Below, piece after piece: positions 15,625-27,759 of a stretch of DNA of 64,000 bases. How positions within the stretch are numbered: position 1 is the stretch's first letter; each line of letters begins with the position of its first letter. This DNA is from Spirochaetales bacterium (GTDB lineage: Bacteria > Spirochaetota > Spirochaetia > DSM-2461). Made by a program: the position numbers and the translations under genes. The notes beneath the pieces are model-generated. The model searched no databases. It was not told the origin of the DNA and saw only the letters and a program-made list of their open reading frames with translations. Where the stretch lies: the NCBI GenBank assembly GCA_016936555.1, contig JAFGXR010000004.1, positions 1 through 64,000 of the forward strand, written 5' to 3'.

Positions 15625-15936
15625 CACCTTTTCTCCTGCAGGCACAGAGCCTGATCCATACTGGCCGGAATCAAATTCCGGACTGAAATCCGCTAGAAGT
15701 TTACGAGACATTTTTTATAATTTTGATGGGAAAAAAAACGAATGGATAGACACATCTATTTCTTTTCTGCAAAACGAAATAGACCTTAATTTAAAACCTA
15801 TAGACTGTCCTGAAAAAAACATGAACATAGGCACTCCTTTATGTCGGCTTGCATTGTATACTTATTTCTCAAAAAGTAAAGAGGGATAGATGGCAAAAGC
15901 TTGAAATTTTAAACAAAATGGACAGATAATTGAAGA
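15625..15936. other. Divergent intergenic region between OmpA lipoproteins and trkH
   Basis: This 312-base AT-rich stretch contains a leader hairpin (CCGGAA 15665-15670 / TTCCGG 15676-15681) on the OmpA side and a possible 37-codon ORF on the minus strand. I could not find a convincing -35/-10 pair for either flanking gene. Confidence 0.5.
15715..15828 (-). CDS. Possible 37-residue small ORF upstream of the OmpA lipoprotein gene
   Basis: An AAAGGAG box sits at good spacing before the ATG at 15828. The frame runs 37 codons (MFMFFSGQSIGFKLRSISF at the start) to a TAA just upstream of the lipoprotein leader. The peptide is Phe/Ser-rich and has no recognisable domain. It could be a chance frame in AT-rich DNA; the ribosome-binding site is the only positive evidence. 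Confidence 0.22.
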   Translation of the reverse strand: MFMFFSGQSIGFKLRSISFCRKEIDVSIHSFFFPSKL

Positions 15937-17030
15937 ATGAAAAAGTTCCTTCTTTTCGTGCTTCTGATTCTGGGAGTCTCCGGGCTTTTTTTCGAAAACC
16001 GCGCCGATCTTCTCGGGAATTACCGATGGATTATCACTGTAATCGATTATATTCTCGTACTGACTCTGCTGGCCGAATCCATTCAGAGTTTTACCCGGGC
16101 GGGAAACAAACTGTATTATTTGAAGAAAAACATCCCCTCGCTGGTATTTCTTGTAATTTATATGACCCTGTTCCTGAGCAACAAGGTTCTGACCCACAGA
16201 TTCGCCGACGCCGGAATCAAAGGCTACTTCGCCTTTATCATTATCAGGAATATTCTTCTCATTCTGAAAGTCTATGGAAGAATGAGAAAATTTTCGGGCT
16301 TTCTCCATTCCATTTTTTCGAAGCCCGCCCAGACCGTGGTCCTGAGCTTTATTCTCGTTATTCTGGCAGGGACTCTCGTGCTTATGATACCCATCATGAC
16401 GGCGGGCTGGGTATCATGCTGCTCTCCTTTTTCCTGGTCTTTTCCTTCAGAAAGAAAGTGAGCATCAAGGACCGATCGCTCCTGACCTTTATGCTGAACG
16501 AATCGGACATAGCCTCCATAATCAAAAGCGTGAAGCGGATTATCGTGCTCACCTTTTCCATTGAAACAGGCGGTGCCCTGTTGCTTTTACCCCAGTTTAT
16601 CGCATCGGGACTGAATCCCGGCAGAGCCCTGTTTTATTCATTTTTTCACGCGATTTCGGCCTTCTGTAATGCCGGGTTCGCCCTGTTCAGCAACAGCCTG
16701 GAATCCTTCAGCGCCAGTCCGGCCATGAATTTCACCATAGCCGGTCTTATAATCGCCGGAGGAATCAGCTTTACCGTTCTGACCGATCTTTTTTCCGGCC
16801 TGAAAGCCCTGATAAAGAGAACGCAGCACAAGCTCTCCATAAACACAAAGGTTATTGTGCGATTCTCCCTTTTCCTGACCCTGGCGGGAATGTTCATCAT
16901 ATACAAGCTGGAACATGTTCCCATGCTTCTGGACCGGAGTCCGGGAGTGCAGTACCTGAGCGCTTTTTTCCAGAGCGTCACCCTCCGTACGGCCGGTTTC
17001 AATACCCTTCCCATGGGAAATCTTCAAACC
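15937..17030 (+). pseudogene. trkH: Broken TrkH/KtrB-type potassium channel subunit
   Basis: The first 155 codons encode hydrophobic helices ending in LVLMIPIMTA, which normally lead into the first pore loop. At about 16398-16406 the reading jumps frame straight to GGLGIMLLSFF, the helix after that loop. About 45-50 residues, including the first selectivity-filter segment, are therefore missing, and the remainder is one frame off. The second half is recognisable TrkH (FFHAISAFCNAGFALFSNSL; SVTLRTAGFNTLPMGNLQ). It ends abruptly at about 17030, where it fuses in frame to TrkA. The last 100 or more residues with the later pore loops are gone. It cannot make a working channel subunit as written. 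Confidence 0.85.
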
Positions 17031-17696
17031 GGAACTCTGGGCAGAACAATCTGCGAAGTCCTGACGGAAAAAGGAGCGGAAGTCATTGCCATCGACAATG
17101 TTCCGGCCCAGATAAACAAAGTCAAGGATATCGTTACCCAGGCCATCCAGCTCGATTCATCCGATGAGGATTCGATCGCCAGCGCTCCCTTTTGACCAGG
17201 TCAATGCCGCCATAGTGCCATCGGGGACAATATCGAAGCCAGCATCCTGACAACGACGCTGCTGAAACAGCAGGGGGTTCCCTACATCATTTCGCGCGCG
17301 GTAAATAAAACCCATTATACAGTCTTGAAGCAGGTAGGAGCCAATGAGGTCGTCAACATCGAGGAAGAGGAAGGCGCCAGAATCGCCATGAATATCATGG
17401 CTCCGGCCCTGATGGAGAAGGTCAAACTTTCAAGGGACATCTGTCTGCAGGAAATACCCCTGCCCCCGGCTTATATCAAAACCAGGCTGGGCACGTTGAG
17501 CCTTACGGAAAAATACAGACTCCGGATGGGAGCTCTCAGGCGTTATTACACGTCGCTGGACAGGGACGGGAATTCCATCCGGACAGAAAAACTCCTGTTT
17601 CCCGAACCGGATGAAGAGCTGCTGGATGGCGATATCCTGATTCTGATCGGCTCGGAATCCGATCTGGAGGAATTCCGGAAAGGCGGTGAAGAATAA
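17031..17696 (+). pseudogene. trkA: Truncated and frameshifted TrkA-type potassium uptake regulator
   Basis: TrkA/KtrA is the cytoplasmic RCK subunit that binds nucleotide and gates TrkH. The start codon and first Rossmann strand are missing; the frame opens at GTLGRTICEVLTEKGAEVIAIDN, fused to the TrkH remnant. One extra T in the run at 17190-17193 creates a stop. About 25 bases later (17214-17218) one G is missing, which restores the frame at AIGDNIEASILTTTLL. From there the RCK-N end and the RCK-C domain (GTLSLTEKYRLR, LLDGDILILIGSE) read normally to the stop. The two small indels cancel and could be sequencing errors. The fused 5' end cannot be explained that way. Confidence 0.82.
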
Positions 17697-18425
17697 ATGA
17701 AAATTATCAGGACCTCGAGGCTTATCATCTCGATTTCACTCATGATCGTTCTCACGGCAGCTCTGGTTCTTGTCGCCATGGAGATAAAACAGGGAAGTCC
17801 TCCCGAGATAAAACTCTACAGAGAGAATATACTCTTCTGGGGGATTATCGGCTTGTCGCTGCAGATCTGGCTGGGCCTATCGCTGCTGCTCAACCATCGC
17901 GGTTTGATCAATGAAGTAAGAAGGCTCGCCCGGATCGGAGATTTTTCCCAGCCTCAGGCCAGGAAGATACTGGAACATCTCGGTCCCCTGGGCAGGGAAA
18001 TGGAAAGGATGATGCGGGAACAGAACAATCTGGTTCACCTGCGCTCCAACAGGATTCCCGCCCTGAACAATCTTGTAAAACTCATGGGAAGCAATTATTC
18101 GGAGCCGATTATCATAAGCGATGTAAACGGTGATATTTTATCTGTCAGCGGGAATCTCAGTGAAAAACTGAAAAAGAACAATCCCGACATCAGCGGCGTG
18201 ACATGCACTCCCGTTACCGACATGGTTGGAGAAATCCATTTCTGCCTCTGGGAGATGGAAACCTCCCGCTTCACCGGACAGAGTCTCCTGGCTCCCGTTA
18301 AATCAAGAGGCCGTAGAACGGGAGAAAACATCCGGGGATTGATCAGCAGGATGAGAAAGCCGAAAGCTAAAGCATCTCCCGGATCTCATGAATCCGGTCA
18401 ATCAGACGCTTCTGGGAAACCTTGA
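17697..18425 (+). CDS. Membrane protein with HAMP/PAS-like region, function unknown
   Basis: This 242-residue protein has two N-terminal membrane helices (about 9-28 and 44-64). A linker with HAMP-like character follows, then a short PAS-like segment (EPIIISDVNGDILSVSG, about 137-153), and a basic C-terminus. No kinase, cyclase or methyl-accepting domain follows. The ATG directly abuts the trkA stop codon, so it belongs to the trk operon. Its last 59 bases overlap the 3' end of hrpA on the other strand. A sensory or accessory role in potassium uptake is only an inference from position. Confidence 0.65.
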   Translation: MKIIRTSRLIISISLMIVLTAALVLVAMEIKQGSPPEIKLYRENILFWGIIGLSLQIWLGLSLLLNHRGLINEVRRLARIGDFSQPQARKILEHLGPLGREMERMMREQNNLVHLRSNRIPALNNLVKLMGSNYSEPIIISDVNGDILSVSGNLSEKLKKNNPDISGVTCTPVTDMVGEIHFCLWEMETSRFTGQSLLAPVKSRGRRTGENIRGLISRMRKPKAKASPGSHESGQSDASGKP

Positions 18426-22378: not shown

Positions 22379-22393
22379 CTGTATTTAATACAG
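22379..22393. promoter_or_regulatory. Perfect 15-bp palindrome between hrpA and the Uma2 gene
   Basis: CTGTATT-T-AATACAG is exactly self-complementary around 22386. It lies 37 bases upstream of hrpA and 32 bases upstream of the Uma2 start. It is one base shorter in the centre than the E. coli LexA box (CTG-N10-CAG). It is a plausible operator of unknown regulator. Confidence 0.4.
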
Positions 22394-22425
22394 ATTAAGG
22401 ATTACACTATGGAGGTATGAAGAAG

Positions 22426-23046
22426 ATGGGTGTTCCGCAGAAAAGAGCAGATCGTAAATACTCATATGACGATTACTGTTCCTGGCCGGAAGATGAGAGA
22501 TGGGAACTGATAGAGGGAACGGCTTATGATATGAGTCCGGCCCCTTCATGGAATCATCAGGAATTATCCGGAGATCTTTTTTTCAGATTCAAGAGCTTCC
22601 TGAAAAAAGGGAATTGCAAAGTCTTTGCCGCTCCCTTCGATGTCCTTATGCCAAAGGAACCGATCGAAAACGAAGGTAAGATCAACACAGTCGTTCAACC
22701 GGATATATCGGTCATCTGTGACCCCGGAAAGAGAACAGAGAAAGGCTGTCTCGGAGCACCGGACCTGATCGTGGAGATCCTTTCTCCGTCCACTTCCAAA
22801 AAAGACCTCAACGAAAAATTCAGCTTGTATGAAAATCGCGGCGTCAAAGAGTACTGGATCGTCGATCCGGGAAATAAATACATCCGGATCTTTCATCTTA
22901 TGAAGAGTGAAGATGAGACATATAAATTCGATGAAGGAACCCTCATTCCGCCGGCGAACTGGCGGGATGAAAACACCACAGCCGAATCTCAGCTTTTCAA
23001 AGGCTTTACCGTCGATGTGAAAGAGCTGTTTGATTCCCTTGAGTGA
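22426..23046 (+). CDS. Uma2 family (DUF820) putative PD-(D/E)XK endonuclease
   Basis: This 206-residue protein carries the Uma2 pattern: WELIEGTAYDMSPAPSWNHQ near the start, QPDISVICD, then PDLIVEILSPSTSKKDLNEK and a YWIVDP segment. The spaced acidic residues and the E-x-L/K part correspond to a PD-(D/E)XK nuclease core. These proteins are abundant in cyanobacteria and scattered elsewhere; their biological role is unsettled. An ATG at 22417 abuts GGAGGT with no spacer, so the ATG at 22426, 9 bases from it, is the better start. The gene converges on nfo with a 3-base gap. Confidence 0.85.
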   Translation: MGVPQKRADRKYSYDDYCSWPEDERWELIEGTAYDMSPAPSWNHQELSGDLFFRFKSFLKKGNCKVFAAPFDVLMPKEPIENEGKINTVVQPDISVICDPGKRTEKGCLGAPDLIVEILSPSTSKKDLNEKFSLYENRGVKEYWIVDPGNKYIRIFHLMKSEDETYKFDEGTLIPPANWRDENTTAESQLFKGFTVDVKELFDSLE

Positions 23047-27650: not shown

Positions 27651-27759
27651 AAGATATCCCAACCGGATTCTGAAACTGTAGATCGACGAAGTATTCAATT
27701 TATACACCTCTCCTGATTCAATACTGAGCCTGCTTCGGATCATCAGCCGGGATCGGCAC

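Follow-up and report, generated by a model that had tools for sequence, protein, structure and literature searches.

Probable recent inactivation by deletion of a trkH-trkA operon in a Spirochaetales bacterium

The window analysed here is a 64-kb stretch of DNA that forms the start of contig C67 in the draft genome of a Spirochaetales bacterium (G000; 4.73 Mb, 134 contigs, 95% complete). Within it, the genes of a TrkH-TrkA K+ uptake system appear in pieces. Do these pieces record a real loss, or is the locus a product of faulty assembly? The original prediction, made from the window by itself, was that two internal deletions had collapsed trkH and trkA, and it allowed for either a recent loss or an assembly artefact. 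Our reading, to which we assign a probability of roughly 0.8, is that the locus is a recently inactivated operon of trkH, trkA and a third gene, and that it is a case of redundant K+ uptake operons being lost through deletions.

The closest genome found with the operon is G002, a member of the same genus in which the operon is intact and has the same gene order and neighbours. The flanks of the window and of G002 are collinear with about 80% nucleotide identity, and the pieces kept by the window are 85-90% identical to the G002 proteins. The difference is that the G002 operon, on its contig C6, encodes proteins of 566 (TrkH), 231 (TrkA) and 277 (third gene) amino acids and has none of the window's deletions. 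Compared with this reference, the window has deletions of 139, 516 and 99 nt as well as two single-base indels, which together leave TrkH and TrkA destroyed and the third gene shorter. Since other genomes hold intact copies (10 of the 26 genomes surveyed have a full-length trkH orthologue), these five disabling lesions are losses in the window lineage rather than gains elsewhere. Outside the operon, the window has about 0.6 kb that G002 lacks and, conversely, lacks about 0.8 kb that G002 has (window 22388-22987 and 27671-27759). The features of the locus are as follows.

15937..16399, + strand: trkH remnant 1, corresponding to residues 1-154 of G002 TrkH, about 90% identical
16398..16408, + strand: junction of deletion 1, 139 nt missing relative to G002, with short G-rich microhomology
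16401..17030, + strand: trkH remnant 2, TrkH residues 202-414, 87% identical, in a frame that differs from that of remnant 1
17025..17040 (about), + strand: junction of deletion 2, 516 nt missing relative to G002
17031..17696, + strand: trkA remnant, TrkA residues 11-231 at 85% identity, interrupted by a +1 and a -1 nt change
17190..17195, + strand: extra T in a T run, which yields TTT TGA, the stop being 17193-17195
17697..18425, + strand: third gene, likely a membrane protein, open over 242 codons, with no Pfam or NCBIfam match

Comparison with the intact G002 copy bears out the predicted collapse in substance, including both deletions and the in-frame join between the two genes. Deletion 1 is not a multiple of 3 and therefore shifts the frame, and it takes away TrkH residues ~156-202. 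The motif VCVTG (TrkH 173-177 in alignment A1), which we take to be the first filter motif and to mark the first pore loop, falls inside this deletion, so the predicted loss of that loop agrees with the comparison. Deletion 2 takes out the last part of TrkH (residues 415-566), the spacer and the first ten residues of TrkA, and joins what remains in frame; the sequence GGnACnCTG flanks it at both ends in G002. The intact G002 protein scores above the cut-offs of both TrkH family profiles, TIGR00933 and PF02386 (342 and 221 bits), whereas the remnant in the window reaches 111.9 bits with PF02386 and is matched only at profile positions 88-344 of 502. A functional TrkH is read in a single frame and has all four pore loops, while the window copy lies in two frames and is without loop 1 and the C-terminal quarter of the protein.

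The intact G002 TrkA carries both domains of a single-domain TrkA/KtrA regulator (PF02254 and PF02080). A functional protein of this kind has its own start and an intact N-terminal nucleotide-binding domain, whereas the start and residues 1-10 are gone from the window copy, which meets a TGA at residue 65. The original prediction held that a +T (17190-17193) and a -1 change (near 17214-17218) cancel each other. The second change does bring trkA back into phase, but the pair is not harmless and fails to rescue the frame because the shifted stretch between them reads TGA at 17193-17195. It might be supposed that the in-frame join produces a functional TrkH-TrkA fusion or a shortened channel, since an open frame (15930-17195) passes through TrkH 202-414 and then TrkA 11-65. 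Against this, the open frame does not read TrkH in the correct phase over its first ~155 codons, the product would lack both pore loop 1 and the C-terminal quarter of TrkH, and the TGA ends the frame at TrkA residue 65. Judged by its reading frames, such a product is contradicted already, and we consider its chances practically nil. The fusion frame would instead be a by-product with no expected function, and annotation of the locus should avoid the label "TrkH-TrkA fusion".

The third gene had been predicted to be intact, a claim refuted by alignment with its relatives: at ~18188-18198 it is without 99 nt (33 residues, in frame) that are present in all 10 aligned relatives. The case is a reminder that a gene which seems intact may conceal an in-frame deletion. 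The end of the gene is under weaker constraint, with a dN/dS against G002 of 0.34 over 67 codons, a rough value. No confirmed relative of the gene turned up in a scan of the genome contigs, and its Pfam matches (E up to 5) look like chance. Its fold, as predicted from an alignment of two sequences, is of low quality, with a mean pLDDT of 48.8. The gene is conserved and lies 3' of trkHA in the aligned relatives (window 17697-18425; L049:11734-12567).

A search of the same genome for TrkA domains yielded a broken match on another contig, C19. In G002, G003 and G001 the counterpart of this locus is a canonical operon in which a trkA of 466-468 aa (468 aa in G002) precedes a trkH of 486 aa. In G000, about 0.8 kb of remnants is left between the same neighbours and consists of trkA pieces and the last ~20 codons of trkH; the lesions are deletions of ~496, 832 and 781 nt, one -1 change and one nonsense codon. 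Wreckage of the same kind has thus befallen another operon of G000, of the canonical trkA-trkH type and unlinked to the first. When the intact G002 copies of the C67-type and C19-type operons are compared, their DNA similarity does not exceed 12-nt matches. The C19 wreck occupies G000 C19:51100-51900 (L045:3061-3891, L201:5061-5863), and the trkA remnant there reads into the last trkH codons.

How long ago the genes were inactivated can be gauged from the constraint that their remnants still display. Taken as rough values because synonymous divergence is near saturation, dN/dS ratios against G002 are 0.046 for the trkH pieces and 0.058 for trkA, compared with 0.041 for the neighbouring hrpA and 0.079 for an upstream gene; the C19 trkA blocks give 0.02, in the main retained block, and 0.06. 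Counts of amino-acid changes, which are rough for the same reason, give 27 window-only changes versus 16 for G002 in the three genes with G003 as outgroup (p 0.13, an unclear excess as a sign of relaxed constraint), and with G014 as outgroup 13 versus 7 in trkH and 7 versus 6 in trkA. Since the remnants are still conserved, at dN/dS of about 0.02-0.06, the loss is recent, as had been predicted; and from this retained conservation together with the change counts, most of the divergence is older than the inactivation. The decay is rich in deletions for so few substitutions, which counts against our preferred explanation.

A low-quality or misassembled consensus that collapsed the locus would account for the crowding of five lesions (three deletions, two single-base indels) into 2.3 kb with little substitution decay, in a draft of 134 contigs and with the +T situated in a T run. 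Such errors may occur in the family, as G003 has a trkA frameshift on a contig apparently labelled cov_2.55; because of that coverage label, the frameshift was not scored as decay. Against an artefact, the errors would have struck two unlinked operons that share a function but no DNA similarity, with no other clear case among the G002 genes placed on C67, C19 and C132. Of the 165 genes placed, 10 rows were flagged, three of them trk genes and the remaining seven partial-coverage, start or end differences as judged from the table. This screen dropped matches below 60% identity or 30% coverage, used C67 and C19 because they carry trk genes, and is blind to in-frame deletions (the third gene was unflagged), to contig edges and to stops early in a gene. 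In addition, no tandem repeats or arrays able to collapse occur at 15-19 kb of the window, including near the junctions, and no second intact copy of the operon was found in the genome's own assembly. An alignment scan of the genome contigs for TrkH gave 80 loci; an identity of at least 50% over most of the extended protein was reached by just two of them, L102 and L103. Further, G005, an assembly of two contigs from another genus, has independently lost residues 144-510 of this TrkH, along with the reading frame (L052:5617-6199), while its trkA and third gene are both open. Of the two possibilities raised by the original prediction, then, recent loss stands and an artefact becomes much less likely, because a second unlinked trk operon has collapsed and trkH has been deleted independently in the two-contig genome; we regard an artefact as quite improbable, and the C67 locus as probably a real, recent, deletion-made pseudogene operon.

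Why the operons were lost is a separate matter. As the original prediction had suggested, other K+ uptake genes were looked for in the genome, and at least one other system is present, namely an intact TrkH-family and TrkA pair (KtrAB-like; 441 and 237 aa) on C132. At the end of C118, a histidine kinase and a response regulator, identified by visual inspection of their sequences, are followed by a TrkA and by a TrkH that breaks off after its first 60 residues; the rest of a TrkH stands at the end of C36. The two TrkH pieces are probably one gene split by a contig gap, because both match a single 507-aa TrkH of G005. This row of kinase, regulator, TrkA and TrkH, with the contig gap, corresponds to L044:1-3078 and L043:3133-4071. 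Neither KdpA nor Kup was found in the search of the G000 genome. Because of these other systems, the C132 pair and the C118/C36 pair, the C67 and C19 operons would have been released from selection, and ordinary deletions, perhaps partly between short repeats, would then have removed both. At four junctions 0.025-0.075 of random pairs have repeats that score equally high, and at two C19 junctions 0.32 and 1.0 do; the junction repeats are therefore weak evidence, suggestive at the four and negative at the two.

Alternatively, once the genome had gained the third type of TrkH, the one found beside TrkA and a two-component pair, it may no longer have needed the two older Trk operons. This type occurs in three of 26 family genomes (507 aa in G005, 505 aa in G010 and split in G000). 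The C67-type trkH is full-length in 10 of the 26, cut by a contig end in 2, broken in 2 (G000 and G005) and not found in 12; when the survey was widened to the order, it again comprised 26 genomes. In the carriers of the new type, the C67-type gene is broken in G000 and G005 and not found in G010, while among the 23 remaining genomes 10 have it full-length, 2 have it cut by a contig end and 11 yielded no copy, so that the C67-type gene is broken in 2 of 3 genomes with the new type versus 0 of 23 without it (Fisher p 0.009). The split also runs within genera: in genus g3 the new type is in G005 and G010 and the intact old trkH in G014, and in genus g1 the new type is in G000 and the intact old trkH in G002 and G003. 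This pattern, however, was spotted after the fact in three genomes, two of them from one genus, and the sample includes incomplete assemblies (G014 71%, G010 81%). The displacement reading presumes that the gain came first, 11 genomes carry neither type, and G005 has no C118-like trkA in the 10 kb around its new-type trkH. Displacement is a special case of redundancy; redundancy itself we hold likely, and displacement is a fair rival that is quite possibly, though not probably, correct. A different cause would be selection against K+ import, with Trk loss favoured and both operons knocked out as a result. It fits the recent loss of two Trk operons while the other genes sampled in this genome are intact, and it has a precedent in E. 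coli, where one report describes trkA or trkE mutations isolated as suppressors in a replication mutant (PMC4900610). But selection accounts for the first lesion in each operon and not for the subsequent deletions, no sign of a replication or stress defect was seen here, and the other K+ uptake genes persist, which makes this explanation rather improbable.

Deletion-driven loss of redundant operons, the reading that we prefer, places the locus in familiar company. Bacterial pseudogenes shaped by deletion carry several independent lesions per functional unit, and backup systems are present. The window resembles them in having several independent lesions in one unit and backups elsewhere, and differs in that two unlinked operons serving one function are affected, with few extra substitutions. 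Among titles found under trkH pseudogenes, deletion bias, spirochaete Trk/Ktr and parallel TrkA/TrkH loss, no published case matches this one.

By itself, the C67 operon is an ordinary pseudogene operon. Together, the losses at C67, at C19 and in G005 provide a small, datable example of redundant ion-uptake systems being lost or replaced. A bolder and rather unlikely version is that of a concerted purge, in which the lineage gained a TrkH system located beside a two-component pair and soon lost two unlinked Trk operons, each through several deletions, and in which the loss recurred independently in a related genus. If that were true, this bacterium and its relatives would show, in nature, the displacement of transporters across a whole function while it is still under way.
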